Part shown: positions 11,736 to 39,338 of the stretch, one piece after another
Position numbering within the stretch: position 1 is the first letter of the stretch
Layout: each line of letters begins with the position of its first letter
Virus record (IMG/VR): IMGVR_UViG_3300022413_000018
Location: 1 to 43,408 of that record
From: a virus
Length of the DNA: 43,408 nt
Reading direction: 5' to 3' (one strand)
Translations under genes and position numbers: made by a program
Notes under the pieces: generated by a model
What the model was told of the DNA's origin: nothing
The model's input: the letters and a program-made list of their open reading frames with translations, nothing else
The model's database searches: none

Positions 11736-11924
<189 letters not shown>

Positions 11925-11928
<4 letters not shown>

Positions 11929-17798: not shown

Positions 17799-18995
17799 AT
17801 GAGCATCCCGACCGTCTTTGCGGACTTCCTGCAGGCGCAGGACAGTTCGTACCTCAACACTCCCCAGAAGATGGTGGAGGCCCTCTCGTACCGCAAGTCG
17901 GCGTGGCGCCGCTTGCTGTCCGGGAAGAGCCCCCGGCACTATCTCCAGGGCGGCAAGTCGATCAAGAGCTTCATCATGCTCGACGATCAGAACTCCGCTC
18001 ACTTCTACGGCATCGGCGACGAAGAGTCTCCGAGTCAGCCGCAGACCGTGTCCTCGTGGGAAGCCTCGTGGCGCTTCATGCGCGCGAGCTACACCTACGA
18101 CGACGAGACGGTCAAGCTGAACGTCGCCGGCCTCGGCCGCACGGCGCGCCACAAGGTGTACTTCACCTTCAAGCAGCAGCTCGAACAGGCGATGTGGATC
18201 GACCAGTTCAAGCTGATGGAGCGTCAGCTCTGGGCCACGGCCAACGCGACGGAGATGGAGTCGACGACCTCGGGCAAGCAGCCCCAGTCGTTCCCCGTCT
18301 TCAACAACGAGTTCGACAACGGCCTGTGCGCCGACGGTGGCTACACCACCACGGTGCAGGGCATCAGTCGGGTCAACAAAGCGCAGTGGCGTCCGCAGCG
18401 GCTGTCGTACGACAACGATGGCACGGGCACCCCGTCCATTCTGCCGGCGATGAGCCGGATGTTCCGTCAGCTCGGCTACGACGGCCTTCCGGACATGGCG
18501 CACTTCAGCTCGAAGTCGACCATGCCTGCGGTCGTGTGGACCCAGCTCGATGGCGTCATGATGTACGAGGACTCGATGCGCACCGGTCAGGACACCTTCG
18601 TCTACACCGGTCGTCAGGACCCGGCCTACCCGAACCCGACGATCCACGGTGTGCCCGTGGAGTACGCGTCGCGTCTCGACACCGCCGCGATCTACCCGAC
18701 GGGCGGTGCCGGAGGCACGGCCACTGGCGCGCAGAGCACCTACGACGACACTTCCGGCGACGACAACTCCGGGCCGCGGTTCCACTTCTTCAACCTCGAC
18801 GATGCATGCCCGCTGTTCCACAGCGAGATGTACATGGAGAAGCACCCGCCGCAGAACCCGTACCGGCAGCCCTCGCGGCACACCGTGTACGTGGACACCT
18901 ACTACAACGTGGTGCTCCACAACGCCCGCACCCAGGGGACGCTGTACCCGTCCGACGACCAGGTCGGCTACGTCACCCCGCCCTCGACTGAGTAG
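17799..18995 (+). CDS. major capsid (coat) protein, 398 aa
   Basis: Follows the scaffold gene after 50 bases that contain a small GCCGG/CCGGC hairpin (17768-17783) and the binding site ACAGGACTC. The 398-residue size fits HK97-fold coat proteins. A helical N-terminal arm (MSIPTVFADFLQAQDSSYLN) precedes a long helix region (KVYFTFKQQLEQAMWIDQFK; a spine-helix candidate) and beta-rich domains ending near VYVDTYYNVVLHNARTQG. Codon use looks very GC3-biased, as expected for a highly expressed protein. The call rests on gene order, size and composition rather than a specific motif. Confidence 0.85.
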   Translation: MSIPTVFADFLQAQDSSYLNTPQKMVEALSYRKSAWRRLLSGKSPRHYLQGGKSIKSFIMLDDQNSAHFYGIGDEESPSQPQTVSSWEASWRFMRASYTYDDETVKLNVAGLGRTARHKVYFTFKQQLEQAMWIDQFKLMERQLWATANATEMESTTSGKQPQSFPVFNNEFDNGLCADGGYTTTVQGISRVNKAQWRPQRLSYDNDGTGTPSILPAMSRMFRQLGYDGLPDMAHFSSKSTMPAVVWTQLDGVMMYEDSMRTGQDTFVYTGRQDPAYPNPTIHGVPVEYASRLDTAAIYPTGGAGGTATGAQSTYDDTSGDDNSGPRFHFFNLDDACPLFHSEMYMEKHPPQNPYRQPSRHTVYVDTYYNVVLHNARTQGTLYPSDDQVGYVTPPSTE

Positions 18996-24249: not shown

Positions 24250-24968
24250 CCAGGCGTCGCGACATCTCCTCGGCGCCCGCGGGAGCGCGCATCAGCCACG
24301 GCATGACGCCGACGGCGGAGCGTCAGGCTCAGCAGCGGCAGTCCCGTCGCCCGGAGGACGAGGACGTGCTCGGGTACGACACGTTCGGCCGGCGCACGAT
24401 CCGCCCGGCGGTCGGGGTGAAGACCTTGGAGGGGCTGACCGATCCGACAGAGATCTCCGCGAAGGTCGACGAGCTGATCGTGAACCTGCGCGATGGCGGC
24501 TTTCTGGACGAGGAGGTTGGTGTCGGCGGCACGCCTTACACGGAGAAAGGAAACCGCAACCACATGGTGCTTTCCTTGGGGTCTCCGAGGCAAACCAGCA
24601 TCTATGCGGGCGCGGGTGAGTGGATGGCCCAGTCGACCGTGGCTTGGGGGTCGGGCGCGCGTAGGCGGGTGGACCTGCGCTTGTACGACAAGGTCCGCTT
24701 CAGCTTCTACGTGGCCAACGCCGCTGCCGGCGGATCCACAGCGGACCTGCGGTATGACACCAGCGGTACGGGCGGCGCGGGGACCCAGGTGACGGGCACA
24801 TCGCTCGATTCGGCGTCAACCGGGTACAAGTCTACGGGGTGGCTCGACCTTCCGGCGGCCGCGCAGATCGAGGATGCTTACATGCTTTTTTACGGAACCT
24901 CCTGGCTGGTCGGGACGATCATCAGCTCGCCCACGGCCGAGTTCCGTCAGAAGGAGAGCGACGAATGA
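24246..24968 (+). CDS. hypothetical virion-associated protein, 240 aa
   Basis: ATG at 24246 in an ATGA overlap with the nozzle gene. The first 60 residues are charged and flexible (MTRRRDISSAPAGARI, then TAERQAQQRQSRRPEDED), with a middle helix TDPTEISAKVDELIVNLRDG. The C-terminal half is beta-rich (VRFSFYVANAAAGGSTADLR). It may be a tail or fibre-attachment protein. No recognised domain. Confidence 0.6.
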   Translation: MTRRRDISSAPAGARISHGMTPTAERQAQQRQSRRPEDEDVLGYDTFGRRTIRPAVGVKTLEGLTDPTEISAKVDELIVNLRDGGFLDEEVGVGGTPYTEKGNRNHMVLSLGSPRQTSIYAGAGEWMAQSTVAWGSGARRRVDLRLYDKVRFSFYVANAAAGGSTADLRYDTSGTGGAGTQVTGTSLDSASTGYKSTGWLDLPAAAQIEDAYMLFYGTSWLVGTIISSPTAEFRQKESDE

Positions 24969-25366
24969 TTTCCGTGGTCAGGTCTGACGCTGAGATCGAG
25001 TCCATCTTCGCGAGGGCGAAGGAGCTCGGGAACGTCTTCGACGCGCACTGGTGCCTGCAGATGTGGAGTGGTGTCCTGGCCCAGAATCTGGGAGTGATTC
25101 TCCGCCAGCATGAGGGGGGGCGCGTGGAGGGGGCGATGGGGCTTTTGATCGCGCCTGCGCTCGATGCGGAATTGGAGTCCCGCGAGATCTTCTGGTTCGG
25201 CGGGAACCTGGCGCTCCTGCGCATGGCAGAGTCGTGGAGCGTGGATATCGGTGCGAAGCGGCTGGTCCTGGGTTGCCCGGAGAATGATCGCTATCCGGCC
25301 CTTGCGCGCGTCAGGCGGCGCGACGGGTACAAGTTGATCGAGCACATGTACGTGAAGGAGCTCTGA
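24965..25366 (+). CDS. GNAT-like acetyltransferase-fold protein, 133 aa
   Basis: ATG at 24965 overlaps the previous stop. The strand-helix order fits a minimal GNAT fold: EGAMGLLIAPALDAELESREI, then FWFGGNLALLRMAESWSVDIGA as the helix after the central strand, and KRLVLGCPENDRY followed by YKLIEHMYVKEL at the end. The usual acetyl-CoA loop (Q/R-x-x-G-x-G/A) is not clear, so catalysis is doubtful. GNAT-fold proteins often sit beside internal virion genes in podoviruses, and this position matches. Confidence 0.6.
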   Translation: MISVVRSDAEIESIFARAKELGNVFDAHWCLQMWSGVLAQNLGVILRQHEGGRVEGAMGLLIAPALDAELESREIFWFGGNLALLRMAESWSVDIGAKRLVLGCPENDRYPALARVRRRDGYKLIEHMYVKEL

Positions 25367-26043
25367 TGGGAAGCGCAGTATCTGGATTGATCGGACCCGT
25401 GGCCGGGCTGGTTGGCGGTGCGGTCGGGGAGGGCCAGGCGCGCAAGGACGCGACGAAGGCCAAGCAGCTGACCCTGAGTCAGATTGAGAAAGCCGTCGCT
25501 GCAATCTCTCAATGGTCGGGTCCGGGAGGGTTCGGGGAGCAGAACCTGGAGAAGACCCAAGGGTTCATCAGCAGCGGCTTCGACAAGGGCATCGGCGCGG
25601 CGAGCGCGATCGGTGAGTCGAACCGCCGCGACATCAAAGAGCGCGGCGCGCAGCGCACGGCCGGCATCGATGCGGACCTGACGAGCCGCGGACTGGGCGG
25701 TTCTTCGCTTGGGGTGCAGGCGTCGGCGCTTTCCGGGTCGGTGGAGAGCGCGGAGCTCGACAACCTGGCGGGCTCCCTGGCGAACACCTTCTCAGCCCTG
25801 GAGGTCGGCCGCGGTTCTGCCATGGCTAATGCTCAGTCGCACTACTCCGATTCGATGCTGAACGCACAGCAGGCGATCGGTGCACTGCACGGAGGGGTAT
25901 CCTTCCAAGGTGGAAGTGGGGGCGGCCTCGGGAGTGCGATCGGCCAGCTTGGGATGATGGCCGCGCTGGGCGGGAAGACCGGAGGCGGCGGATCGGCTAG
26001 CGCTGTGGGTGGTGGTGGATCAATCCTCGGACCGAGTTTCTGA
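25366..26043 (+). CDS. internal virion/core protein, Ala-Gly-rich, 225 aa
   Basis: ATG at 25366. The N-terminus is a hydrophobic glycine-zipper-like stretch (MGSAVSGLIGPVAGLVGGAV). It is followed by long helices rich in Ala, Gly, Ser and Gln (AAISQWSGPGGFGEQNLEKT; SVESAELDNLAGSLANTFSA) and a Gly/Ser C-terminus. Such membrane-friendly, helical proteins are ejected with DNA and help form a channel in the host envelope. The next gene, two bases away, is probably its partner. Confidence 0.7.
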   Translation: MGSAVSGLIGPVAGLVGGAVGEGQARKDATKAKQLTLSQIEKAVAAISQWSGPGGFGEQNLEKTQGFISSGFDKGIGAASAIGESNRRDIKERGAQRTAGIDADLTSRGLGGSSLGVQASALSGSVESAELDNLAGSLANTFSALEVGRGSAMANAQSHYSDSMLNAQQAIGALHGGVSFQGGSGGGLGSAIGQLGMMAALGGKTGGGGSASAVGGGGSILGPSF

Positions 26044-26044
26044 C

Positions 26045-27469
26045 ATGCCGGTAATCGAACTCCACAAGACGGGCAGCGGGTACGCGGAAGCGACCCAGGC
26101 TGCACTCCAGACCTACGTGCAGCTCTCCGCGTTGCAGATGCAGCGCGACAAGAACGAGCTCGCAAACAAGATCGCCACCAAGCAGCTGGAGTGGGCGACG
26201 GAGGACCGCGCGCGCCAGGAGCGCGAGCGCAGGGCTGACGCCGAGTTCGCTGCGCGCAAGGTTGGTGGCGTGAGTTCTCCGGCGGACATCGAGGCCGAGC
26301 GCGACGCGTCGATTGGTGCACAGATGCCGAGCGCGGAGGGCGGCTTTGTCGCGGGCGCGGAGGGTTCGGGCTCTGCGCCGGGGTCCATGGGCTTCCTCAC
26401 GGGTGGCCTGGTGGGTGCGCAGCGTGCTGTCGAGGTGGAGACTGACGCTGCGCTGAAGAAGTCCGAGCAGGACATGGCCAAGCTCACGGACCTGGTCCGT
26501 GACTTGAGCCCCGGTGCGCGTGCCCTGGCAGAGCAGCACTTCGCGCAGGAGAACGCCCGCAACGTGGGCGGCGCTGCGCAGCGCGACGTGTCGCGGGCAT
26601 TGCGTGCTGCGCTCAGGCGTCAAGTGATGCCTGGCGAGGAGGAGTGGTTGGGTTCGTTGGTTCACGCGGTCGACGCGTGGGACGCGGAGACGGGGGAGGG
26701 GCTCTCTCCGTGGGACGCGGAGGCGCAGTTCCGCGAGCGCTACAAGGAGTGGCACGAGGACCAGACCGACCGCGAGTGGCGTCAGACCCAGGTCCAAAGC
26801 ATGTCCGCCATGGTGCAGGCGATGGGCCTTGGCACCAATCGCGTGGTGATGGGCGCCGTGGCGGCGGTCGCCTCCCAGGGCCTTACCCCGGGCCAGGGCT
26901 TTCGAGCGATCCAGACCGAGTGGAACCGCGTGAACGGCGAGAAGGACGACGTGGAGGAGAAGAAGTCGACGGTCGACCTTTCTGCCTTCGGCGGAAAGCG
27001 TTCGTCGATCGAGGATCTCTTCGGCCTGCGCGAGGGTGGCGACATGGCGAGCATGACGACCGACCAGGCAGAGACGCTCGACCTGTGGGCGCGCCAGATT
27101 GCAAGCGAAGACCCTGAGGTGCGCCGCAACTCGAAGGGCGAGGTGAATTGGGAGAATCCTGAGTCGAAGGCGGTTTTTGAGCGCACCCGTTCGCGCATCG
27201 CGCGTGGGCTGGGGTGGACCGGAAGGCCGGGTGCGGCGAAGAAGCCTGAGATCGAGCCCACGGGTGTGGTGGATTTTGATCTGCACCTGCAGCGCGGCGG
27301 TCCTGGGTGGGCCGGCGCGGACAAGCGCGTGCTCACCACGCTGGTGACGCAGTTCCTCGCGACGAGGGACGTCGATGGCCTAGTCGCTGCCTTCGGGCAG
27401 ATGGGCATTCCCCGCTCCGATGTCCCGGCAGAATTCTGGGACGAGATGGCCGTGCGACTAGGGCAGTGA
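26045..27469 (+). CDS. internal virion/ejection protein, helical, 474 aa
   Basis: The start is ATG at 26045, two bases after the previous stop; a longer frame from 26009 only overlaps that gene. It is almost entirely helical with coiled-coil-like stretches (LQMQRDKNELANKIATKQLE; WATEDRARQERERRADAEFA) and no catalytic motif. Size and place, before the giant ejected protein, fit a core protein comparable in role to T7 gp14/gp15. It ends directly against the GTG of the next gene. Confidence 0.7.
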   Translation: MPVIELHKTGSGYAEATQAALQTYVQLSALQMQRDKNELANKIATKQLEWATEDRARQERERRADAEFAARKVGGVSSPADIEAERDASIGAQMPSAEGGFVAGAEGSGSAPGSMGFLTGGLVGAQRAVEVETDAALKKSEQDMAKLTDLVRDLSPGARALAEQHFAQENARNVGGAAQRDVSRALRAALRRQVMPGEEEWLGSLVHAVDAWDAETGEGLSPWDAEAQFRERYKEWHEDQTDREWRQTQVQSMSAMVQAMGLGTNRVVMGAVAAVASQGLTPGQGFRAIQTEWNRVNGEKDDVEEKKSTVDLSAFGGKRSSIEDLFGLREGGDMASMTTDQAETLDLWARQIASEDPEVRRNSKGEVNWENPESKAVFERTRSRIARGLGWTGRPGAAKKPEIEPTGVVDFDLHLQRGGPGWAGADKRVLTTLVTQFLATRDVDGLVAAFGQMGIPRSDVPAEFWDEMAVRLGQ

Positions 27470-30400
27470 GTGGCGCTCCCCGGGCAACAGGATCCGCTCC
27501 TCCGCATCCTCCGCGGTGAGGACCCGCTGACTGGTCCGAGCCAGGACCAGCTGATCGATCGGATCATGGCGGAGCGTGGCCTTGCGCGCGCGCTCGACGA
27601 GGACCGCTCGAAGCCTGACAACGAGAAGTCTCTCGATCGCCTGAGGCGCGGACTCGGCGAGGACGCCCGCAAGCGGGGGAAGGCCAGCGACCTGGCGTTC
27701 GCGAAGATGCTGGACGAGGTGACACCGCCTCCGCCCGAGCCCAGCGTTGCTGACTACGCGAAGTCCGCTGGCGTTGGCGTGCTTCAGGGCTGGACGAGCT
27801 TCGTCGACAGCATGACCAACGACATGATCGCCCTTGGGATCAGCGCGGCGGTGGACGAGCCTGGCCGTGGCCGTGGGCGCGCGCCGCGCATCCATCCGGA
27901 GAAGCGGGAGGAGGTGAAGCGCATCGCGCAGGAGTTCGCGAGCCGCACCGACGATGCGTGGGCCCGCATCGTGCCCGTACCCGAGGGGACGGAGGGGTCT
28001 TTGCCCAACGTGGTTGGCCAGGGCATCGGATCGAGCTTGGGGTTCTTCGCGAGCGTGGGGATTGGAGGGCCGGTCTCCACGGGGCTGAAGGTCGCCTCGG
28101 TGGGTGCGGCTCAGGGCCTGACGCAGGGGTACTGGGAGGCGGCGGAGTTCACCGACGATGAGACCGCGCGCTGGATGGCTGGCATCGCGAACGCCCTGGT
28201 GGGGACCAGTGAGAGCTTCCCTATCTCGGGTCAGATCTCGCGCATGTTCTCGCGCTGGGACAAGGCTTCGGGCGGTCTCTTCAAGCAGGCTCTCGCGCGC
28301 GCGGCGACCACGGGCCTGTACGAGGGCGCCGAGGAGTTCGTGCAGGAGACCGGCCAGGGTGGCCTGAACAACCTGATCATGCAGCTGGCCGGCGACGAGG
28401 ACCGGCAGCTGATGGACGGGGTGATCCGCGGTGGGCAGGGCGGTTTCCTGGCCGGCATCTTCATGTCCGCCCTGGCCAGTGGCCCCGGGCTCCGCCGGGC
28501 CTACGGCGCTGAGCAGGACCGTGGTGGGGCCCTGGTCGACGAGGCGGACCAGCTCGAAGGCGAGATCAGGCCGAAGGAGAAGGGTTTCCTCCTGCCCGAC
28601 GAGGGCGTGCCCCAATCCGGGACATCCGGTGTCCCGGACGGGACATCCGGTGTCCCGGGCGAAAATGTTCCACATGGAACACTTCCAGAGGTCCAGGCCG
28701 AGCTCGAAGCAGCGAGCGAGGGGGCGGCCGAGCCCCAGGGCGCCGCTGAGGAGGCCCAGGACGCGCTCACGGCCGCGGAGAGCCCGGAAGACGTGCGAGC
28801 CTCTCTGCAGCGCTTGCAGGCTCTGACAGGCCCGCAGCGCAAGCGGCTGCGCCAGCGGGCCCAGGCGCTGGAGGCGCGGGCCCAGCGGTTGCTCCAGGCG
28901 ACGTACGAGGCGGGGGACCCGGAGGCGCCGGCTCAGTACGAGCAGGACGTGTCTGAAGCGATCGAGGCGGGCTCGAAGGCCGGGGAGCTCCGGGCCGAGC
29001 TCGACGCGTTCGACGCCATCCAGAAGGAGATCAAGGCGCGCAAGGGCAAGCACCCGAGGGCGGACCGCCCGGTGCGGCCGGCGGGGCTCGATCCGATGGA
29101 GGCCGCGATCGAGGCCTTCGACGAGGGCCGGCTCGAAGAGGGCGGCACGCCCTACGGCGAGGAGGCCGAGGCAGCCATGGGCGGCATGCGCGAGCGCATC
29201 CAGCAGGGCCTGGCCCCGGTGCCGGCATCGCTCGAGGCGAGTGAGAACCTGCGTCTGCACGTCAACCGCACCGCGAAGGGTAAGAAGCCCTCGGGCGCCC
29301 AGGCGAACCTGCGCAAGCGCATCAAGCTGCCCGACGGTCGCTACTGGGTGGTTGGCAAGCCGACGGTCAAGGACTGGACGAGCCGGGTCGAGTCGACCCT
29401 GTCCCCCGAGCAGATCAACGAGTCTGCCCAGTGGTACGAGGGCGTGCTGGATGTCTTTACCCAGGAGTTCGGCGAGGATGGCGCGGCCTACGCGACGGCG
29501 TGGTTGATGGCCAACGTCGCCACGAACCCTTCGGGCGCGATGGGGTCCGCGCTGCGCGGCCGCGAGCAGGCGGGCGGCTTGAAGTCAGACTTCAAGGCCG
29601 GCGCTGCGTTCGAAAAGCTCGCCGGGTTCTGGAAGTTCGCGACGACCGGCGAGGACATGGGCAAGGCCGGCGGCGCGAAGATCTACGACTTCATCGACTC
29701 GGCCTTCCAGCGCAACACGCGCACCTGGATGGGCGACGACCCGCTCGGCGGGGAGCCCGTGGTCATCGACCGGCACGCGGCGCGCGACATGGGCTATGTC
29801 GACATCGCCATGATGGCGCACCTGCAGAAGGCCGGCGCCGATACCTCCCAGATCGTGCAGGACATCGCGGGCGCGCCCAATCCTGGCGCTCCGAGGGAGA
29901 CGCAGTACGAGTCGGCGGCGCAGCAGTACCGCGACCTGACGAAGAAGCTGAACAAGCAGAACTGGCAGGGCCGCTCGGACTGGACGCCACGCCAGGTGCA
30001 GGCGGTGGGCTGGATCACCACGCTGGAGTTCTTCGGTCTGGTGTCGGAGTACCCGCACGAGGCGGTCTCCAAGAACGTGCGCAACCTGTCGGTCGCGTCG
30101 GCGCCGGGCGAGGGTGCGGCGCGCTTCGGCGACGAGGCGCGCATGGACCCCACGGAGTCTGGCAAGGCCGTCGACGAGGCGGTCGCCGTACTGCAAGAGA
30201 TCGCCGACCTCCCCCTGCGCGTGCCACAGCACGGCATGGGCGGCTGGCTGGGTGGCTCCGAGCCCTCTTCTCAGATCGAGGTCCCTGCCTCGCCCGAGCA
30301 GTCGCAGGCGGCCGCGGACATCCTGGGCTACCTGCTGCGCCAGACCGCGGTGCGCGTGGAGCGCCCGCTCGCGCCAACGAAGGGCGGGGCGATCCCGGCG

Positions 30401-33400
30401 GCCGCGAACGAGTGGTTCGTCGACATCACGGGGGACTTCGACGAGGTCGTGGCCGGCGAGGCGGCGATGAGTGGCCTCACGGGCATAGAGACCGGCTACC
30501 ACCTCATCCCGGGCGGTATCCGGGTGGGCATCTCGCGCAAGGCCCTGCCGGCGGCCGCGCAGGCGAAGACGCTGGACTCGAAGGTGAGGCCGGCGCTGCA
30601 GGGTATGATGGACGCGCTCGAAGAGGCCGGCGTCACCTTCGACGTGACGGTGCGCCCGGGCGAAGCGGAGTTCCGAAGCAATGACTGGACGAAAGACACC
30701 GAGGGGGAAGGGTACCTGGCGCGGATTGGCGCCGTCTACGGACCCGGGGTACTCGACAAGCTCCGTAGTAGTCGGCGGGCTGAAGGGCGCCAAGCAGACA
30801 TCCGGCAGCTCGAAGCTGAGGCCACTGCTCCAGCCGAGCTCCCCGCCCGACTCGAAGAACCCCAGCTCGACCTATTCGGGACCGAAGAAGCCGAGCTGAG
30901 GAACGAGCGGTCGGTGTCGCGGAACTCCGCGACGCTCCCGCGCAAGGACGAGAAGCTCAAGGCACTTCTGCGCTCGGAGGGCATCGAGCTGGAGAAGGGC
31001 GAGACCGTCTCCACGCTGGTCGACGGCTACGTCGAGGCGAAGATCCCGAGTTTTGAGATGGAGGGCAAGCTGGTCTCCAGCCCGACCGACGCCGCGGTGC
31101 TCTTCGGCGCGCTGCGTTCTCCCTTCGTGGAGCGTTCAGCCTGGATGGTCGTGGACGCCGACGGAACCGTGCTCGGGAGCAGCGTCTACGCGATGGGCAC
31201 CCTGTCGAGCGCGTCGATCCCCACTACCGCGGAGGACTACGCCGGGGTCCGGGCTGCCATCGGGCGGGCTAGCGGAAAGCCCAAGCTCTACTTCTCCCAC
31301 AACCACCCCTCGGGCAACCCCGCTCCGTCGAACGCTGACTACGGCGCGTACGTGCGCATCGCGGCCGAGGCGGGCGCTCTCGGGGCCGAGTTCCACGGGA
31401 TCGTGGTGAACGGTAGCCGTTTCTCCAGTCTGAGCATCCGCCCCGAGGTGTTCGAGGACTTCGCCTCGGGGGTGATTGGCCGCGAGGCCGTGCGCCGCGA
31501 TCCCGGCATGTTCTGGCTCGCCGAGTCGCTGGAGTACGACCCGCTGAACTCCCGCTTCGATGCGACCGCGGAGCGCCGTCCGCGCGTTATGCGCGCCACG
31601 ACCGCGGCCGGGATCGCGCGCCAGATCCAGGTGGACGAGGATGCGGTGCTCGCGATCGTGCTGGATGCGGGCGCGCGCCTGCGCGCGGTCAGTTCCCTGA
31701 TGGTGAAGGGCCGCTCGGAGGTCTCTCAGCTGGCGAAGGAGCACGGTGGCGATCGGGTGATTCTGGTGACGGGCAGCCTGAAGTCGCTCGCGGTGCTGCG
31801 CCGCCAGACGTGGCCCGTGGAGGTTGTGGACATCATCCATCTGCGCGGCGACGAGGTGAACTCCGACGCCGGCAGCCACCGGATGACCCGCCAGGGCTCC
31901 GTCTACGGGCGCACCGGGCAAGAGCTCGGGTCGGGGGTGCGCGAAGACCCGGCCCGCTATGGCCGCGAGAACATCGACGACATCCGCGGCATCGCGGAGC
32001 AGGCCGAGCTCGAAGGCGAGGACACGGAGATCGGCAGTTCGGACATCCGCCGCGCCATCCCGTCCGACAGGGAGAAGGAGCGCGCGCTGTTCCGCGCCGT
32101 CGACGAGTTCAGGAACATGCACGGTGACCCGATCACGGTGCCGAACGAAAAGAGCCGAGCCTTCGCATTGCACAAGCTGATGTCGGACCCCACTGGGGTT
32201 CGAGCACTACTGAATCGCAAGATGCGGGAAGGCTCGGCTCTAAACACGTGGGAGTCGATCGCTGCTTCGAAGATCTCGCGCGAGCTCATGGCGAAGGCGA
32301 TCGAGGACGGCGACGCGTCGTCCTACCGTCAGGCCGTGAAGATGGCCGACGCCTACCGCACCGCGCGCGCGGAATCGGCGCGTGCGCTTCAGGTCGTGCG
32401 CGACCCGCTGCTCACGAAGTCGGAACGAATCAGCGAGGCCTTCACGGACATCCTCACCACGCCCGGGCGTGAGTCGCGCAGGCGCATCGCTGCCGCGGAA
32501 AAGCGCGGGCGCCACGACGCCATCGACAAGATCCTCGACGAGGAGGCGAAGAAGTTGGCGAAGGCGAAGGAGCGCCTCATCAAGGCCGGCTTCACGCTCG
32601 GGCAGCTGGACGAGGGGGTGACCTCTGACCCGGTCGCGCTGGCGCGCATCGCGCGCATCATTTCGACCTCGAAGTCGGCCTTCTGGGACAAAGGCCTGGA
32701 GTGGCAGTACGCGGTGATGCTCTCGGGCCCGCACACGCACAAGGTCAACGTGCTCGGGAACACCGGCTGGGCCGCGTGGAACCAGCACACGCAGCACATC
32801 GCGGAGGCGCTGGTCAACGTCGTCGTGCGCGACAAGAATTCGCCCGACTTCAGCGACCTCGTTGCCTTTTACAAGGGCTGGCTCGCGTCGTTCTCCGACG
32901 CGGGCGCGAACGTCGCGCGCGCCTACAAGACCGAGCAGTCGGCGTTCGAGGTCGACCTGGCCAATAAGGGTGTGCACATCGACGAGTTCGGCACGAAGAT
33001 CGAGTTTATGAAGCACGGCGCCGCGATCGGCGGGAAGCTGGGCCAGGCCATCCGCCTGCCAAGCACGACCTCGTTGCTCGCGATGGACGAGTTCTTCAAG
33101 ACGCTCGCGACCATGGGCGAGGTGCACATGCTCTCGCACATGGCGGCGAAGGCGGACGGGTTCACGGGCGCGGAGCTCGAAGCCGAGGCGTTGCGTCGGC
33201 GCGAGGACTACACCGACCCGATGTGGGAGGAGGCTCTCTACCAGGGCAAGTCCCAGGTCTTCCAGGAGGGCAAGGGCCCTGGCGAGGAGGCCGTATACAA
33301 GGTCCGCTCGTGGCTCGACAACCTCTTCGGCTGGACCCCGTGGGAGATCACGCGCATCCCGATCGGGACGATGCAGTTCCCGTTCGTGAACATCCCCTCG

Positions 33401-34588
33401 AAGATCATCAAGGTCGGGCTGCGCGAGCTGATCTCTCCGGCCACGCCGTTCGTGAAGGGCGGGTTCAGCCTGCTCAGCGCGGAGGGCCCATACCGTGGCC
33501 CCAAGGGGAAGGCCGCCGCGGTCACGGACACGGCGCGCGCGCTGAAGGCCCTGGCGTTGATCGCGATGGTCATGAAGCTCCTGGAGCCGCTCGGCGACGA
33601 CGACGAGGCCTGGCCGCAGATCACGGGGACCACGCCGGAGGACGCGGGGGAGCGTGGGTTCGCGTACCGCACCGCGCCGCCGTACTCGGTGTACCTGTTC
33701 GGGGCCTACCGCGACTACCGGCGCCTCGACCCGTTCGCGACGTTCCTCGCTCCGCTGGTCGACGCCGGGCACGCCCTCAAGAACTCCCGGGATGGGGTCA
33801 AAGCGGAACGTGCGCTCGGCGCGCTGACCAGCGGGGCCCTCCAGGCTGTCGTGGAGATGCCGTTCCTGCGCGGGATGTACGAGCTCGTGGAGGGTGTGCG
33901 TTCATCGCGCGAGTCCGGTGGCAAGTGGGACAAGAAGCTGGTGCAGTCCTGGTTCTTCACGCGCATGGTGCCGAACCTCGTGGTGCAGCCGATGCGTGAG
34001 ACCGACCCGTTCATTCGGGCGAACCAGCTGCGCCGCCACGACGACGAGTCGCTGTGGACCTCGATGCTGAAGGACTCGATCTACCGTTCGTGGCCGCAGG
34101 CGTCGAAAGCCCCGCCCGTGCGCTACGACGTGTGGGGCCGTCCGCTGACGCGCTTCGACCCGGAGGCTCCGAAGTGGCGCCGGGTGGTGGACAAGTTCAT
34201 CAACCCGATGCCCGCGCAGGGCACGCAGCTCGATGACATCTCCCGCCTGGATCTTCTGATTGACCGCTACAACCACCGGGTGGAGAGCGGAGATCTAGGG
34301 GACGTCGACGACCGCGGCCGCCCGGCCGAGAAGCTGTGGCCCCGCACGCCGCAGTACTGGTTCACGTACTCGGGCAAGACGTACTACTTCGACGAGGAGG
34401 AGTACTCGGAGCTCCAGCAGCGCGCCGGTCAGATGGCGGCGGAGGAGCTGGCGGAGGAGGGGCTGGACTACGCGAACCCCGGTTTCGAGGAGAAGGAGTT
34501 GATCAACAAGGCTCTCTCGCGCACGCGCAGGTTTGTCCGCGATGAGCTGATTGAACGGCGTGTGGCCACGGGTAGGCTGGGTCAATGA
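27470..34588 (+). CDS. giant polyvalent ejected protein with RadC/JAB metallopeptidase domain, 2372 aa
   Basis: GTG at 27470 abuts the previous TGA. N-terminal helices are followed by a Gly-rich hydrophobic zone (~180-225) and a low-complexity linker (~360-560). A domain at ~640-870 contains WYEGVLDVFTQEFGEDG and VVIDRHAARDMGYVD, of the kind found in polyvalent phage proteins. At ~1195-1330 lies a RadC/JAB domain with HNHPSG...PS..D: H1277, H1279 and D1290 give HxHx10D. After a helical middle comes the ejection-type C-terminus (~1740-2372), with MLSGPHTHKVNVLGN, MQFPFVNIPSKII and a hydrophobic helix near 2030. It is likely packed in the virion core and injected to prepare the host. Domain functions are inferred from family knowledge. 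Confidence 0.88.
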   Translation: MALPGQQDPLLRILRGEDPLTGPSQDQLIDRIMAERGLARALDEDRSKPDNEKSLDRLRRGLGEDARKRGKASDLAFAKMLDEVTPPPPEPSVADYAKSAGVGVLQGWTSFVDSMTNDMIALGISAAVDEPGRGRGRAPRIHPEKREEVKRIAQEFASRTDDAWARIVPVPEGTEGSLPNVVGQGIGSSLGFFASVGIGGPVSTGLKVASVGAAQGLTQGYWEAAEFTDDETARWMAGIANALVGTSESFPISGQISRMFSRWDKASGGLFKQALARAATTGLYEGAEEFVQETGQGGLNNLIMQLAGDEDRQLMDGVIRGGQGGFLAGIFMSALASGPGLRRAYGAEQDRGGALVDEADQLEGEIRPKEKGFLLPDEGVPQSGTSGVPDGTSGVPGENVPHGTLPEVQAELEAASEGAAEPQGAAEEAQDALTAAESPEDVRASLQRLQALTGPQRKRLRQRAQALEARAQRLLQATYEAGDPEAPAQYEQDVSEAIEAGSKAGELRAELDAFDAIQKEIKARKGKHPRADRPVRPAGLDPMEAAIEAFDEGRLEEGGTPYGEEAEAAMGGMRERIQQGLAPVPASLEASENLRLHVNRTAKGKKPSGAQANLRKRIKLPDGRYWVVGKPTVKDWTSRVESTLSPEQINESAQWYEGVLDVFTQEFGEDGAAYATAWLMANVATNPSGAMGSALRGREQAGGLKSDFKAGAAFEKLAGFWKFATTGEDMGKAGGAKIYDFIDSAFQRNTRTWMGDDPLGGEPVVIDRHAARDMGYVDIAMMAHLQKAGADTSQIVQDIAGAPNPGAPRETQYESAAQQYRDLTKKLNKQNWQGRSDWTPRQVQAVGWITTLEFFGLVSEYPHEAVSKNVRNLSVASAPGEGAARFGDEARMDPTESGKAVDEAVAVLQEIADLPLRVPQHGMGGWLGGSEPSSQIEVPASPEQSQAAADILGYLLRQTAVRVERPLAPTKGGAIPAAANEWFVDITGDFDEVVAGEAAMSGLTGIETGYHLIPGGIRVGISRKALPAAAQAKTLDSKVRPALQGMMDALEEAGVTFDVTVRPGEAEFRSNDWTKDTEGEGYLARIGAVYGPGVLDKLRSSRRAEGRQADIRQLEAEATAPAELPARLEEPQLDLFGTEEAELRNERSVSRNSATLPRKDEKLKALLRSEGIELEKGETVSTLVDGYVEAKIPSFEMEGKLVSSPTDAAVLFGALRSPFVERSAWMVVDADGTVLGSSVYAMGTLSSASIPTTAEDYAGVRAAIGRASGKPKLYFSHNHPSGNPAPSNADYGAYVRIAAEAGALGAEFHGIVVNGSRFSSLSIRPEVFEDFASGVIGREAVRRDPGMFWLAESLEYDPLNSRFDATAERRPRVMRATTAAGIARQIQVDEDAVLAIVLDAGARLRAVSSLMVKGRSEVSQLAKEHGGDRVILVTGSLKSLAVLRRQTWPVEVVDIIHLRGDEVNSDAGSHRMTRQGSVYGRTGQELGSGVREDPARYGRENIDDIRGIAEQAELEGEDTEIGSSDIRRAIPSDREKERALFRAVDEFRNMHGDPITVPNEKSRAFALHKLMSDPTGVRALLNRKMREGSALNTWESIAASKISRELMAKAIEDGDASSYRQAVKMADAYRTARAESARALQVVRDPLLTKSERISEAFTDILTTPGRESRRRIAAAEKRGRHDAIDKILDEEAKKLAKAKERLIKAGFTLGQLDEGVTSDPVALARIARIISTSKSAFWDKGLEWQYAVMLSGPHTHKVNVLGNTGWAAWNQHTQHIAEALVNVVVRDKNSPDFSDLVAFYKGWLASFSDAGANVARAYKTEQSAFEVDLANKGVHIDEFGTKIEFMKHGAAIGGKLGQAIRLPSTTSLLAMDEFFKTLATMGEVHMLSHMAAKADGFTGAELEAEALRRREDYTDPMWEEALYQGKSQVFQEGKGPGEEAVYKVRSWLDNLFGWTPWEITRIPIGTMQFPFVNIPSKIIKVGLRELISPATPFVKGGFSLLSAEGPYRGPKGKAAAVTDTARALKALALIAMVMKLLEPLGDDDEAWPQITGTTPEDAGERGFAYRTAPPYSVYLFGAYRDYRRLDPFATFLAPLVDAGHALKNSRDGVKAERALGALTSGALQAVVEMPFLRGMYELVEGVRSSRESGGKWDKKLVQSWFFTRMVPNLVVQPMRETDPFIRANQLRRHDDESLWTSMLKDSIYRSWPQASKAPPVRYDVWGRPLTRFDPEAPKWRRVVDKFINPMPAQGTQLDDISRLDLLIDRYNHRVESGDLGDVDDRGRPAEKLWPRTPQYWFTYSGKTYYFDEEEYSELQQRAGQMAAEELAEEGLDYANPGFEEKELINKALSRTRRFVRDELIERRVATGRLGQ
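28617..28660. repeat. two tandem 21-bp repeats, each containing an inverted repeat
   Basis: The 21-base units at 28619-28639 and 28640-28660 differ at one base. Each contains GGGACA...TGTCCC, and the first extends to CCGGGACA...TGTCCCGG arms. They encode a duplicated GTSGVPD/G peptide in the disordered linker of the giant protein. A DNA- or RNA-level role is possible because the protein sequence here should be unconstrained. Confidence 0.75.
28666..28681. promoter_or_regulatory. parS-like 16-bp inverted repeat
   Basis: TGTTCCACATGGAACA has perfect 7-base arms (TGTTCCA/TGGAACA). It differs at one central base from the bacterial chromosomal parS form TGTTCCACGTGGAACA bound by ParB. It lies five bases after the two 21-bp repeats, in the coding linker of the giant protein. 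No ParB gene is visible in the window. The match is seen directly. Binding is inference. Confidence 0.45.
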
Positions 34589-35264: not shown

Positions 35265-35475
35265 GAGCAGGGGCAACGGGCTTCTTTGGTGACCACCCAA
35301 GGCCCTGCGAGTGCTCGCCGCAGCCTTCGTTCATGCTGCGCTTCGCGTACCGCGGAAAACGACGACACTCACCTCTGTCGTAGTCGTACCACTCGGCCCT
35401 AAAGCCCGGGCGGGGGTGTTGATTACCCGTGAATCGCCAATGCTGGCAATGTTTGCATGTGGGGTGGTTGCTCAC
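35245..35475 (-). CDS. Cys/His-rich small protein, 76 aa
   Basis: The GTG start at 35475 overlaps the stop of the upstream micro-gene and follows GGGAGGCTGGG. The N-terminus has NHPTCKHCQHW, then GECRRFPRY and a later GCGEH, so four Cys and several His could bind one zinc. The C-terminus is proline-rich (PVAPAPNPPPP). It resembles small phage zinc-binding proteins with CxHCxxW and ECRRxP signatures. Last gene of the leftward block, convergent with the lipoprotein gene. Confidence 0.65.
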   Translation of the reverse strand: MSNHPTCKHCQHWRFTGNQHPRPGFRAEWYDYDRGECRRFPRYAKRSMNEGCGEHSQGLGWSPKKPVAPAPNPPPP

Positions 35476-35558
35476 CCCAGCCTCCCGTTCACCCACGCTG
35501 CAGCGGCCAGGGAGAGAAACACCAGGATGATCCAGGTGATGAATTGCTTGGATGTCAT
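35472..35558 (-). CDS. single-span membrane micro-protein, 28 aa
   Basis: ATG at 35558. The peptide MTSKQFITWI is followed by a hydrophobic run (ILVFLSLAAAAW) and a short polar end VNGRLG, so it would be one membrane span. Its TGA overlaps the GTG of the next gene, which supports translation. Function unknown; similar tiny membrane peptides occur in this block at 37358 and in the late region at 12363. Confidence 0.5.
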   Translation of the reverse strand: MTSKQFITWIILVFLSLAAAAWVNGRLG

Positions 35559-35562
35559 GCGG

Positions 35563-35808
35563 TCAACCCCAACGGTCTAGGCCTTCGGTGTCCTCCACGG
35601 GCACGCCCCCGAACGTCAGCTGTCCGGGGACGTCTTTCTTGCGGCGCGTCTTCTTGCGCCGCGGAGGATCGGTGAAGTTGACGACGGCACCACTGTGGAG
35701 CCGCGCTGCGTGGCGATCTGTTTTTGAAGCGCGGACCGTTCGAGCGCAGTGGGAACACTTGAGGAGAGGATCTCTTCGCGCCTCAGGTCCCAGTCTCTTT
35801 TTCGCCAT
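35563..35808 (-). CDS. C2H2-type zinc-finger-like basic protein, 81 aa
   Basis: The ATG at 35808 sits seven bases from GAGG; an ATG two codons earlier is also possible. Residues ~15-40 read LKCSHCARTVRASKTDRHAARLH, a C-x2-C-x10-H-x4-H finger, followed by a basic stretch (DPPRRKKTRRKKD). It probably binds nucleic acid. The 5' 193 bases overlap, in another frame, the 3' third of the nuclease-like gene upstream. Confidence 0.65.
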   Translation of the reverse strand: MAKKRLGPEARRDPLLKCSHCARTVRASKTDRHAARLHSGAVVNFTDPPRRKKTRRKKDVPGQLTFGGVPVEDTEGLDRWG

Positions 35809-36074
35809 GACCATACCTCGATGTGGTTGGTGGACAGCAGCAGTAGGCGGGCGAGACCCGGCCACGCCAAGACTTTTTTTCGGCGCGCCGCATGGCATGA
35901 GCGCTCCGTAGTCTGGATGTAGTAGGTCTCGCCCTCCGGCGTTATCGCATGGAAGTCGAACACGCCGTACATGTCTTTGCGTCGGTAGGTGTGCGGGAGC
36001 CAGGTCTCTACCTTCTCGCACATCCACCCCAGCCGCCCGATTTCGTCGCGCGTGCGTGAATCGAAGGACTTCAC
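35616..36074 (-). CDS. nuclease-fold-like protein (PD-(D/E)xK type), 152 aa
   Basis: GTG at 36074, one base after the upstream stop. The first 90 residues match small phage proteins of restriction-endonuclease fold: a helix (SRTRDEIGRLGWMCEKVETW), then KDMYGVFDFHAITP with the active-site Asp on a strand, and YYIQTT where E-x-K usually stands (here Q-T-T). A helix and the strand HIEVWSWRKR follow. The changed catalytic residue leaves activity uncertain. The C-terminal 64 codons overlap the zinc-finger gene, so either the protein has an unusual tail or natural selection acts mainly on the other frame. Confidence 0.6.
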   Translation of the reverse strand: MKSFDSRTRDEIGRLGWMCEKVETWLPHTYRRKDMYGVFDFHAITPEGETYYIQTTERSCHAARRKKVLAWPGLARLLLLSTNHIEVWSWRKRDWDLRREEILSSSVPTALERSALQKQIATQRGSTVVPSSTSPILRGARRRAARKTSPDS

Positions 36075-36075
36075 T

Positions 36076-37050
36076 CTAGGCGGGCGGCTTCGCTTCCGTG
36101 AGGTAGCCCGCGTTGAAGACGTACGTCCAGGTCACGTCGCCGGGCAGCATGTGTCGCTTCCCGTTCCCGTCGACGTACTTCACCAGGCCGTAGCCCTTGT
36201 TGTCCCTCCAGATGAATTCGTTGGGGATGCGCACCTCGACCTTGCCGCCCTTGATGATGTTCTTTTCGGCGATCACCTCGTCGCAGTCGTCGAAGATGAT
36301 CACGTCGCGGTTCGACGGTTGCTTGTACTCGATCAGGTTGTCGCTGAACTCCAGGTAGCGCGCGCCTTCGAACATCGCGGCGCCGTAGGACTTGTATCCC
36401 CCGGGCTGCGATTTTGCGAACCAGCCCATCTGGCTCTTGAGGTGGTTCCCGTGCGCGTGGATGGAGAGCTTCTCCACGCAGCGGAACACGGACATGGCTG
36501 ACGCCGGCCGGCTGATGCCGTGAGCGGCCCACCAGTTCCATTGCCCGCAGTGCTTGTAGAGGTTGTTGGTGATGAAGAGCTTGCCGGTGTTGCTGCGGCG
36601 CTCGGGCCAGCCGGTGTTCATCGAGCGGGACTGGGGGCCGACGAACTGTGTGCCCTGCGACATGGGCCCGTCGAAGAAGTTGCCGTCGATGACGACATCG
36701 CCGTGCTCGAAGTCGAGGTCCATGTAGACGTCGTGTTCCTTGACCTTGGATCGGAACCACGTGCGTTCGATCTTCAGGTCGCTCATCATGTACGTGCGTA
36801 TGATCCACGGCGGCTCGACGCGCCAGCGCTTCACGTTCGGCTGAAACTTACGGTGCCCGTAGAGCTCGCAGTCACGGATGCGCCAACCGACGTTCTCGTG
36901 CTTCCCGACGTTGGGGGTGATGATCACCGCCTGCGCCGCGCCGTGGATCTTTGCGTGGTCGAGGATCAGCGGGGTGCTGTCCTTGTGGTAAATCGGTCCG
37001 TGGTCGCTGACCGTCTTCGGTCTGGTGAAGTGAACGTGCCGCTTGGCCAT
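36076..37050 (-). CDS. right-handed beta-helix protein (pectate-lyase-like), 324 aa
   Basis: The start is ATG at 37050 behind AGGAGCTCAGC; the open frame extends upstream to 37305 but that part overlaps the next gene and a terminator. Repeated short strands with Asn/Asp turns (WRIRDCELYGH, VVIDGNFFDG, LFITNNLYKH, LSIHAHGNHL, LEFSDNLIEY, VIAEKNIIKG) give about ten coils typical of parallel beta-helices. Such proteins are polysaccharide-binding or -degrading, as in tail spikes. No signal peptide or virion-attachment domain is visible. It is the largest gene of the leftward block. Catalytic residues cannot be assigned. Confidence 0.78.
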   Translation of the reverse strand: MAKRHVHFTRPKTVSDHGPIYHKDSTPLILDHAKIHGAAQAVIITPNVGKHENVGWRIRDCELYGHRKFQPNVKRWRVEPPWIIRTYMMSDLKIERTWFRSKVKEHDVYMDLDFEHGDVVIDGNFFDGPMSQGTQFVGPQSRSMNTGWPERRSNTGKLFITNNLYKHCGQWNWWAAHGISRPASAMSVFRCVEKLSIHAHGNHLKSQMGWFAKSQPGGYKSYGAAMFEGARYLEFSDNLIEYKQPSNRDVIIFDDCDEVIAEKNIIKGGKVEVRIPNEFIWRDNKGYGLVKYVDGNGKRHMLPGDVTWTYVFNAGYLTEAKPPA

Positions 37051-37070
37051 GCTGAGCTCCTGTAGGGAAG

Positions 37071-37108
37071 GCGAAAACCGGCCGCCACCCGAGTGGATGG
37101 CGACCGGT
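37071..37108 (-). terminator. rho-independent terminator upstream of the beta-helix gene
   Basis: On the minus strand ACCGGTCGCCA and TGGCGGCCGGT (37108-37098 and 37087-37077) pair over 11 bases with one wobble, and TTTTC follows. A second hairpin, CCGCC-TTTGTCA-GGCGG, lies just upstream at 37137-37121. Together they would reduce read-through from the small genes into the beta-helix gene, which has its own strong ribosome binding site. Confidence 0.6.
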
Positions 37109-37145
37109 AATGACGAAAGGCCGCCTGACAAAGGCGGTCCGCACT

Positions 37146-37361
37146 CTAGCCCTTCGAGGCGGTCGTGTCTTTGGGTGCCCCGTCCCAGTCCTGAAAGGGC
37201 TCCTTCAGGACGTACCCGGACGGGGTGAGCTCTAGCTTCCCCTCCAGGAGCATCTGCACCTGTGGCTTCTTCTCGATCTGCGCCAGCGCGTCGCACACGC
37301 TGCACGCGCAGGGGTCGGGGTGCTTCGATGTCGCGAGGCAGAGGAGCTCGTAGGGGTTCAT
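37146..37361 (-). CDS. hypothetical protein with CxCxxC motif, 71 aa
   Basis: ATG at 37361 overlaps the stop of the upstream micro-gene. The sequence begins MNPYELLCLATSKHPDPCAC and continues CSVCDAL, so a Cys cluster (C-x-C-x2-C plus another) may hold a metal. The C-terminus is polar. No family recognised. Followed by paired hairpins at 37137-37071. Confidence 0.55.
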   Translation of the reverse strand: MNPYELLCLATSKHPDPCACSVCDALAQIEKKPQVQMLLEGKLELTPSGYVLKEPFQDWDGAPKDTTASKG

Positions 37362-37456
37362 GCGAAGATCCACACGGCGATGGCGAGGCCCAGCACGGTG
37401 CCGAGCAGCAGGCCGACGAAGATGTCGTTCATGAGGGGGTGGTGCGTGTCTTTCAT
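37358..37456 (-). CDS. single-span membrane micro-protein, 32 aa
   Basis: ATG at 37456 overlaps the upstream stop, and its own TGA overlaps the next ATG. The peptide begins MKDTHHPLMND and continues with a hydrophobic, Gly-containing span (FVGLLLGTVLGLAIAVWIF). Likely inserted in the inner membrane. Function unknown. Confidence 0.55.
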   Translation of the reverse strand: MKDTHHPLMNDIFVGLLLGTVLGLAIAVWIFA

Positions 37457-37995
37457 GAGAGTCCCAACCGTTCTGCCATCCGCTCCAGTGCGTTGGCTGC
37501 GAAGCGCAGGCGCCTCTCGTCCAGGAGGCAGCTGATGTACCAGCCCTTCGCGAGCTCTTTGCTGCCGTCGTTGTGGGATGCGACGGGGGCGTACTCCTTG
37601 ACGGAGCATGTGCCCACGATCCCGGCGGAGCTGAGCTTTCTTTTGCGCGACCCCTCGGAGTCCATGAAGTCCTTGTCGTTGCGGCAGAAGGCCTCCATCT
37701 GCCGGCCGCTGAATCCGTTCTCCCTCAGCACCCGCACGGCGCGGTTCATCCGCTCCAGGCCGGGGTAGTAGTCGTACATCTGCCGGGGGGTGGGCCGAGG
37801 CTCCCTCTCGTGGAACAGTTCCCGGAAGAGCGGGCGGTGCGGCTTCGCCTGCGGAACGACCTCCGGCGCCGTCGCGATTGTCTCGTTCTCCTGGGGGAGG
37901 TCCCCGGAGTAGGTGAGGTCCCCGGAGTAGTAGTGCGTCTCGGACCCCACCGTCATTCTCACGAACACGCGGAGTGCGGTTTCCAGTTTAGCCAT
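37453..37995 (-). CDS. hypothetical protein, 180 aa
   Basis: ATG at 37995; the upstream purine run AAGAAAGAAGAAGC may act as binding site. Residues ~22-34 hold a tandem YSGDLT/YSGDLP duplication. The C-terminal 110 residues are an ordered alpha/beta domain (MYDYYPGLERMNRAVRVLRE; GFSGRQMEAFCRNDKDFMDS) ending in helices (LRFAANALERMAERLGLS). No family recognised. It is the largest unknown of the leftward block and might be an enzyme or inhibitor. Confidence 0.65.
   Translation of the reverse strand: MAKLETALRVFVRMTVGSETHYYSGDLTYSGDLPQENETIATAPEVVPQAKPHRPLFRELFHEREPRPTPRQMYDYYPGLERMNRAVRVLRENGFSGRQMEAFCRNDKDFMDSEGSRKRKLSSAGIVGTCSVKEYAPVASHNDGSKELAKGWYISCLLDERRLRFAANALERMAERLGLS
37897..37929. 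repeat. tandem 18-bp duplication in coding sequence
   Basis: The 15-base word GAGGTCCCCGGAGTA occurs at 37897-37911 and 37915-37929. On the coding minus strand it encodes the YSGDL duplication. It is a recent, in-frame duplication. Confidence 0.8.
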
Positions 37996-38031
37996 GCTTC
38001 TTCTTCTTTCTTCGGTTTGCGTTGTGAAGGG

Positions 38032-38064
38032 GGGCGGAGCGCCGTCAGGAGCGACGCCCCGCCC
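38032..38064 (-). other. 10-bp GC-rich stem-loop between leftward genes
   Basis: On the minus strand GGGCGGGGCG (38064-38055) pairs with CGCTCCGCCC (38041-38032) with one G-U pair and a 13-base loop. It is followed by CCC and not by a T-run. It lies in the only real gap of this part of the block and could be an attenuator or mRNA-end element. Confidence 0.5.
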
Positions 38065-38066
38065 TG

Positions 38067-38294
38067 CTACTTCCCGATCGATCCGAACGACGCTTCGGTG
38101 GTGTTCCAGACGCTCCGCAGTGTCTCGCTGGGAATCTGGACCGTGAGCGTGTAGTAGATCGTGTTCGTGCTTGGGTCGATCCAGACTGATCGGATGACCG
38201 CGGTGCGACCCTTGAACGAATCGGGAATGCTTTCGTTTTCAGCGTCGTCGTCGATGATGACGCGCTGACCCAGGAGGTTGGTGTGGAGGAACAT
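38067..38294 (-). CDS. hypothetical beta-rich protein, 75 aa
   Basis: ATG at 38294 overlaps the upstream stop by one base (TGATG). The protein (MFLHTNLLGQRVIIDDD) alternates short strands (GRTAVIRSVWIDPSTNTIYY, TLTVQI), like a small SH3-type barrel. No catalytic residues visible. Function unknown. Confidence 0.6.
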   Translation of the reverse strand: MFLHTNLLGQRVIIDDDAENESIPDSFKGRTAVIRSVWIDPSTNTIYYTLTVQIPSETLRSVWNTTEASFGSIGK

Positions 38295-38569
38295 CAGGAG
38301 AGCTTCACTCCCAGGTAGAGGGCCTTCGCCCGGCAGACCTGGGCCTCGGGTTCGGTGATCCTTTTCACCACGTTGATGGCGGTGGCGCGGTCGACCCACC
38401 CGGCGTCGGCGCCGTCGGCCAGCCCGAGTTCCACGATGGAGACCGTCTCGATGCGCCCGCAGACCCTTCCGATTTCGAAGGCGCGAACGGCCTCGGGGTT
38501 CGGTTCGAGTTCCTGGGGAAACCCATCGGGTCTCGGGTCGTCGTCGTAGGGCACGGGTTCTTCGGTCAT
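38294..38569 (-). CDS. hypothetical protein, 91 aa
   Basis: ATG at 38569 in an ATGA overlap. An acidic, proline-rich N-terminus (MTEEPVPYDDDPRPDGFPQE) precedes a helical domain (PEAVRAFEIGRVCGRIETVS; GWVDRATAINVVKR) and a short C-terminal hydrophobic end. No family recognised. Confidence 0.6.
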   Translation of the reverse strand: MTEEPVPYDDDPRPDGFPQELEPNPEAVRAFEIGRVCGRIETVSIVELGLADGADAGWVDRATAINVVKRITEPEAQVCRAKALYLGVKLS

Positions 38570-38820
38570 ATCGGGCGCTCCTTTCCATCCTTGTCGATCC
38601 AGAACGAGCGAGTGTAGACGACGTACTCCACCCCTTTGTGGATGACCCGGTTGACGGGGTCATCGCTATACGCGGCGCGGTAGCCCGTCACCGCCGTCCA
38701 GCGCATCATGACCCACTGGGCGGATTGGCGCGCCTCGGCTTCGGTCGCGTACCGCAGCGAGTTCCCGTTGAACACGCCAGGGTCGTCGTTGATGGTCGAG
38801 ACCTGAGGGGCCCAGCTCAT
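38566..38820 (-). CDS. hypothetical protein, 84 aa
   Basis: ATG at 38820 in an ATGA overlap. The sequence MSWAPQVSTINDDPGVFNGN is followed by a helix with EAEARQSAQWVMMRWTAVTG and strands (VEYVVYTRSFWIDKDG). The arrangement helix-then-two-strands resembles small phage proteins of unknown function. No metal or membrane signature. Confidence 0.6.
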   Translation of the reverse strand: MSWAPQVSTINDDPGVFNGNSLRYATEAEARQSAQWVMMRWTAVTGYRAAYSDDPVNRVIHKGVEYVVYTRSFWIDKDGKERPI

Positions 38821-39131
38821 AGTACGGGGGGCTTCTCGACGTTCGGGCCGTCGTCGTGGTTGCCCCGAATCAGGATGTCGCCCTGGCTTGTGCGGATCGT
38901 GATCAGGTAGGCCATGTGCTCCGTCGAGCGGGGATCGCTCTCGACGGAGAGTCCGAGGAGTACCGCGGGGTTGAAGAAGTGTTGCTCTTTCACGACATCC
39001 TCTTTCTCCAGCACGGGGGGCATGGGTTCCGGTTCGATACGCGGGGGCAGGTCGCCCTTCGGCTTGTCCGTGGGTGTGATTACGGGGACGTGGAAGGCCA
39101 CGAGGAGGAGGGGGAGGGCTAGGGCTTTCAT
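38817..39131 (-). CDS. secreted/periplasmic small protein, 104 aa
   Basis: ATG at 39131 overlaps the upstream stop. MKALALPLLLVAFHVPVITP is a signal peptide (basic start, hydrophobic core); the mature part starts with a proline/lysine-rich linker and ends with a beta segment (MAYLITIRTSQGDILIRGNH). Probably exported to the periplasm. Role unknown; it may modify the envelope or block other phages. Confidence 0.6.
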   Translation of the reverse strand: MKALALPLLLVAFHVPVITPTDKPKGDLPPRIEPEPMPPVLEKEDVVKEQHFFNPAVLLGLSVESDPRSTEHMAYLITIRTSQGDILIRGNHDDGPNVEKPPVL

Positions 39132-39338
39132 GCCTGGCCCCTCGCCTTGGCGAGGCGATCGAGCGAGGCCGCTACGCCTCCCGCCATCGGGTCGCCTTGT
39201 TCGCAGCACGCGCGGCAGGTGTCGTAGGGCTTCGCGTTCGACCACGAATAACCGTCGTAGGGCTTGCCCGTGTAGGGACACGGGTCGCCCACCTTGAGGC
39301 CATCGTGGCGCTTCATGCCTGCCCCCTCGCATTGGCGA
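39127..39338. repeat. pair of 27-bp direct repeats (25/27) flanking a small gene
   Basis: Copies lie at 39127-39153 and 39312-39338, differing at two positions, 185 bases apart. Each spans the end of one gene (encoding ...ARGQA and stop) plus the overlapping ATGAA start of the next. Recombination between them would remove exactly one gene and keep the coupling intact. Confidence 0.85.
39128..39316 (-). CDS. Cys-containing micro-protein flanked by direct repeats, 62 aa
   Basis: ATG at 39316 overlaps the upstream stop. The protein starts MKRHDGLKVGDPCPYTGKPY and has PCPYTG and TCRACCEQG, enough Cys for one zinc. The C-terminus ends KARGQA. Both ends of the gene lie in 27-bp near-identical repeats, so it forms a cassette that could be gained or lost as a unit. 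Confidence 0.6.
   Translation of the reverse strand: MKRHDGLKVGDPCPYTGKPYDGYSWSNAKPYDTCRACCEQGDPMAGGVAASLDRLAKARGQA

Follow-up and report, generated by a model that had tools for sequence, protein, structure and literature searches.

Here, we describe a pair of RadC domains, one with an intact metal site and one without metal ligands, that lie one after the other in a single 2372-residue protein encoded at 27470-34588 of a viral genome, and we relate this pair to its counterparts in other phages. The DNA is IMG/VR virus record IMGVR_UViG_3300022413_000018, analysed as the complete record of 43,408 bases and called the window below. Our computations show an active RadC domain followed, in one chain, by a second RadC domain that lacks the metal ligands. 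As a module, this active and dead pair is conserved among giant phage proteins, and it did not occur in the solo RadC proteins examined. To our knowledge, RadC is a very widespread bacterial family with no known activity. An earlier, sequence-only reading of the window had noticed a RadC/JAB domain inside a very large protein and had overlooked the second domain. What it observed holds up and its interpretation finds partial support; with the recurrent pair, the pattern proves wider and more sharply defined than that reading supposed.

The gene is exactly the open reading frame (ORF) named in the earlier reading, and at 16.4% of the window it also agrees with the share of about 16% given there. 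The window DNA is 65-70% GC and long antisense ORFs are frequent in it, but homologues for both ends and for the middle of this frame show it to be the coding one. For the active domain, PF04002 matched the whole protein at residues 1217-1321 with 27.4 bits (E 3.5e-6) and the isolated domain piece with 34.2 bits (E 2.7e-8), against a curated cut-off of 22.1, and a six-frame search of the record gave E 1.1e-9; the match is far above chance. Residues H1277 and H1279, in HNHPSG, and D1290, which ends SNAD, stand where the sequence-only reading had placed them. When the domain is aligned with nine solo RadC proteins of plasmid and phage origin, E1221 falls on the conserved RadC glutamate, the residue that reading had suggested looking for upstream of H1277, and S1287 at the JAMM serine position, so that the JAMM set is complete (E1221, H1277, H1279, S1287 and D1290). 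An AlphaFold model of residues 1175-1475 built from 34 sequences gave confident domains, with a mean predicted local distance difference test score (pLDDT) of 77, and its top PDB match in Foldseek was RadC 2qlc, followed mostly by JAMM proteins (BubCD, Rpn11 homologues and PfJAMM1); the earlier claim of a JAB fold survived this comparison. The domain thus shares its fold, the HNHPSG motif and the full JAMM set with RadC/UPF0758 (PF04002, 2qlc), but differs in being embedded in 2372 residues, in being followed by a dead copy, and in scoring far under the equivalog and subfamily cut-offs of NCBIfam for RadC (NF000642, 27.9 against 180 bits; TIGR00608, 22.5 against 133.85 bits).

In the giant proteins, the region after the active domain follows a short linker and echoes the RadC secondary-structure pattern. 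Its profile aligned by hhalign to the first domain with 96.6% probability and to independent solo RadC proteins with 96.7% over 105 columns, against 0-0.4% for reversed, shuffled and unrelated controls, and when run on short RadC proteins it falls on the RadC domain itself. This profile was built from the same giant proteins, and a leave-one-out test was therefore run, which recovered 21 of 34 second domains at E < 1e-3 (window, 4.1e-5). Modelled alone with AlphaFold2, the second domain reached a pLDDT of 82, and the PDB entries matching it at or near E 1e-3 were RadC 2qlc chains only, with template modelling (TM) scores of 0.61-0.67; the next structural neighbours, which were non-significant, were nucleoside-type deaminases. 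With RadC likeness by both profile and model, and with the HxH motif lost, we regard the second domain as a dead RadC. Active JAB domains with a dead JAB partner are familiar from Rpn11-Rpn8 and BRCC36-KIAA0157. By prediction, the window pair would resemble these MPN+/MPN- pairs in joining an active to an inactive JAB domain, and would differ from them in being fused in one chain and in drawing both members from the RadC clade.

How far the active site is constrained can be judged from the residues that did not enter the selection of loci. These were picked by the HNHPSG pattern, which contains H1277, H1279 and PSG, and the invariance of these positions is accordingly not evidence. E1221, S1287 and D1290 all lie outside the pattern, and among the giant proteins they are kept in 33 of 34 (with one gap), 34 of 34 and 34 of 34 cases, respectively. 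Identity between these proteins and the window protein is no more than about 15-25%, and the active site is therefore constrained.

Scanning IMG/VR with a RadC profile left at least 80 loci, and statements on RadC-bearing relatives (designated L0xx) refer to the matches listed among them. In 34 of these 80 loci the RadC domain sits in a frame of 931-5382 amino acids, and the next longest frame has 342, a clear gap. The active and dead pair was present in every large frame (35 of 35 with the window included, all from uncultured phages), in none of 55 short RadC frames of phages and plasmids, and in none of 81 cellular RadC frames, the last obtained by a genome scan with an eight-row alignment whose matches were solo cellular RadC only. 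The combination noticed in the sequence-only reading is therefore not unique to the window, since dozens of giant proteins in phages contain the pair. Among the loci listed, those most like the window encode giant proteins. In a tree of active domains, one weakly supported branch (76/38; present in 78% of bootstrap trees) parts giant from solo proteins, and the smallest well-supported set containing the window holds 26 giant proteins and no others. When the paired region of L021 was used as a query against cultured phages and plasmids, no record spanned both domains, a search in which tblastn was probably blind to so divergent a second domain. A literature search found no published description of tandem RadC domains. 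One giant frame, L047:6905-10921, carries two active-profile RadC domains (residues 515-627 and 1031-1154) and a dead domain after the second only. In another phage (L025), a separate frame of 307 amino acids matches MPTase-PolyVal at E 2.9e-40 (record G011:5189-5575) and the giant protein has the RadC pair, placing zincin and RadC on different proteins.

The relatives with the pair are phage-type polyvalent proteins. Domains found on scanning 13 giant proteins include LPD38, ART-PolyVal, InPase, Kinase-PolyVal, PBECR5, LPD1, LPD3, LPD5, Acb1 and SNF2; LPD38 above its cut-off occurs with RadC in one frame in seven phages, and portal genes adjoin the giant-protein genes in L017, L018, L022 and L048. 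The polyvalent protein L022 (5144 amino acids), in which RadC is joined with SNF2/ResIII helicase domains, matches the window protein also at residues 1544-1684 and 1720-2361. The window protein shares with published polyvalent proteins, as they are described in the relevant sections of the 2017 survey (PMC5512222), the giant multidomain build and a gene placed after the head-tail genes, and its relatives add LPD38, ART, InPase and the other domains listed; size and gene position likewise support the polyvalent category to which the earlier reading had assigned it. In section 33 of that survey, RadC polyvalents are confined to conjugative elements, though section 16 mentions prophages, and its RadC passages do not mention a dead second domain (PMC5512222). 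Measured against section 33, a phage-type class of RadC polyvalents is an extension, and RadC reaches phage-type polyvalent proteins contrary to the published restriction.

The window protein is likely to be an ejected "pilot" protein, judging from its sequence and place in the gene order. The giant gene comes after the head gene and further late genes, whose order is T7-like, the N-terminus matches L019 (E 2.6e-11), and residues 220-346 weakly match the injection region of phrog_2206, the N4 virion RNA polymerase (E 2.1e-7). At the C-terminus, phrog_6651 (internal virion protein) matches weakly (E 3.9e-5), as do Autographiviridae phages, one match being internal virion protein D of Roseobacter phage CRP-804. 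Ejection is inferred from this T7-like position together with the weak matches to the N4 polymerase and to internal virion proteins. The ejection-type ends proposed in the sequence-only reading are thus backed by weak profile matches and one long relative, L022, but by nothing stronger. In its place after the head-tail genes, its very large size and a tentative, weak similarity of its ends, the protein is like T7 gp16 and N4 virion RNA polymerase; it is unlike them in that the enzyme in its middle is a RadC pair, and a Pfam search found no transglycosylase or RNA polymerase domain in it. The window's portal and terminase genes are assigned only by gene order, by size and by how their sequences look.

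To us, it appears an even call that the protein is a podovirus pilot (ejection) protein, the positional counterpart of T7 gp16 or N4 virion RNA polymerase, polyvalent in build, which brings a hydrolase with a fused inactive partner into the cell. The giant protein would be packaged and then threaded into the host together with the DNA, and the RadC pair would refold in the cytoplasm. E1221, H1277, H1279 and D1290 would bind zinc, with S1287 aiding catalysis, and the dead domain would hold the substrate or position the active domain, as MPN- does for MPN+. JAMM sites use a zinc-activated water, and the bonds cut by the characterised members are amide or isopeptide bonds (PMC5512222). The most likely chemistry would be hydrolytic cleavage of an amide-type bond, the target being a host protein or protein conjugate that would act against the DNA on its entry, at a time when phage genes are not yet expressed. 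A bolder form of this proposal, that the injected module strips a protein modification or conjugate used in host defence within the first minutes, as a virion-delivered deconjugase with a fused regulatory partner and the first real function for RadC, is a speculation we would rate as unlikely. Several points weigh against the pilot-hydrolase reading: the likeness of both ends to ejection proteins is weak, a Pfam scan found neither LPD38 nor another polyvalent domain in the window protein itself, and searches of phages, IMG/VR and GTDB genomes returned no direct relative of the whole protein and no close relative with the gene. Alignments of the portal, head and terminase proteins yielded L002 and L003 only, on contigs too short for the giant gene. 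Moreover, Iyer et al. (PMC5512222) argue that RadC has no groove for the ubiquitin tail and that its substrates may be nucleic acids.

This last point leads to the main rival, in which the RadC pair is a nuclease or nucleotide hydrolase that works on the DNA coming in or on that of the host, and the dead copy serves as its DNA-binding arm. We consider it possible yet rather improbable. The published case, in the parts of the two papers that treat it, is made from domain context and a deaminase-like fold (PMC5512222, PMC3482391). L022 adds to it by coupling RadC to helicase domains, and so do the non-significant deaminase neighbours of the dead domain; yet all JAMM positions are retained, serine included, and we know of no demonstrated RadC nuclease. 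A DALI search with a RadC-like domain, moreover, gave metalloproteases and zero nucleases (PMC11981726). Alternatively, the pair could be the protein's own peptidase and free the domains of the giant after ejection, which we considered as a third option because the usual zincin is missing from the RadC-pair proteins. Zincin MPTase domains are thought, in the survey's treatment of them, to cut polyvalent proteins (PMC5512222); the window protein has no HExxH, and MPTase-PolyVal occurs in only 1 of 34 tandem-RadC records, on the separate frame of L025, a count that covers RadC-bearing records only. Against this, no cleavage site is known and characterised JAMM enzymes mostly act on conjugates or C-termini, and we doubt self-processing to much the same degree as we doubt the deconjugase. 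Least probable, in our view, is a purely structural role, in which the domains would catalyse nothing and would assist the folding of the protein or its anchoring in the capsid or channel, as E1221, S1287 and D1290 are strictly kept across such divergent proteins. The presence of the active and dead pair in giant phage proteins, and its absence from the short RadC frames checked, suggest a conserved, uncharacterised tool of early infection. Its confinement, in our sample, to giant phage proteins places RadC in the concrete context of early infection and offers compact constructs for testing.

Table 1. Positions in the window of the giant gene, its domains and residues, and genes near it
Feature	Position	Strand	Basis
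Giant gene	27470..34588	+	ORF; GTG start, 2372 amino acids, free of internal stops
Putative N-terminal ejection-type region, residues 168-409; Gly/Ala-rich, hydrophobic stretches 181-199 and 318-336	27971..28696	+	phrog_2206; L019; hydrophobicity
Active RadC/JAB domain, residues 1197-1323	31058..31438	+	PF04002; active-domain (d1) profile; AlphaFold2 and Foldseek
JAMM glutamate E1221	31130..31132	+	Alignment with solo RadC; 33/34 giant proteins, one gap
JAMM HxH, H1277-N-H1279	31298..31306	+	Alignment with solo RadC
JAMM S1287 to D1290 (SNAD)	31328..31339	+	Alignment
Dead RadC-like domain, residues 1369-1456, VTG at HxH position	31574..31837	+	hhalign; second-domain (d2) profile; leave-one-out; AlphaFold2 and Foldseek of the domain alone
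Region common to window protein and polyvalent protein L022, residues 1544-1684	32099..32521	+	30% identity, E 6e-5
Putative C-terminal ejection-type region, residues 1720-2361	32627..34552	+	L022, 27% identity, E 1e-46; phrog_6651; Autographiviridae matches
Major head protein, upstream of giant gene	17799..18995	+	phrog_9953, E 1e-4; 83% identity to L002 and L003
Two genes directly upstream (225 and up to 486 amino acids), placed where T7 gp14/gp15-like ejection proteins would lie	25366..27469	+	Position alone; no family match

Between the N-terminal region and the RadC pair, the WYEGVLDVFTQEFG-type domain that the sequence-only reading placed from residue 655 on can be read in the sequence, but searches gave it neither a homologue nor a family: residues ~600-900 (WYEGVLDVF) had no match in Pfam, in phages or in the fetched loci. 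A DNA-glycosylase-like domain in these residues, for which the sole basis was a non-significant match to DUF7178 (E 0.11), is not claimed. TetR_C_24 at residues 435-483 was rejected, being under its cut-off and within an Ala/Glu-rich stretch.

Elsewhere in the window, the early half encodes on the + strand a SNF2-type helicase (1438-3114), a primase/polymerase-like protein (4575-6320) and a second phage DNA helicase (6971-8584). A weak acetyltransferase match (24839-25366, +; phrog_1249, E 0.04) lies between the tail-region genes and those in the ejection position. Downstream of the giant gene, AT skew is reversed at 35300-39700, a stretch with several reverse-strand ORFs (e.g. 36076-37305, 38067-38663 and 38817-39488) that have no Pfam match, and a right-handed beta-helix or pectate-lyase-like protein is encoded at 41749-42771 (+), a candidate tail spike or depolymerase. 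Repeats mark two further + strand genes: the product of 8597-10108 has a C-terminus of imperfect short repeats (GVSNEGARMDVSSTKATMGVSNEGSTMDVSNAGATMGISNEGARMDA), and the ORF at 11590-11928 ends in a long acidic repeat (EESEDEE...).
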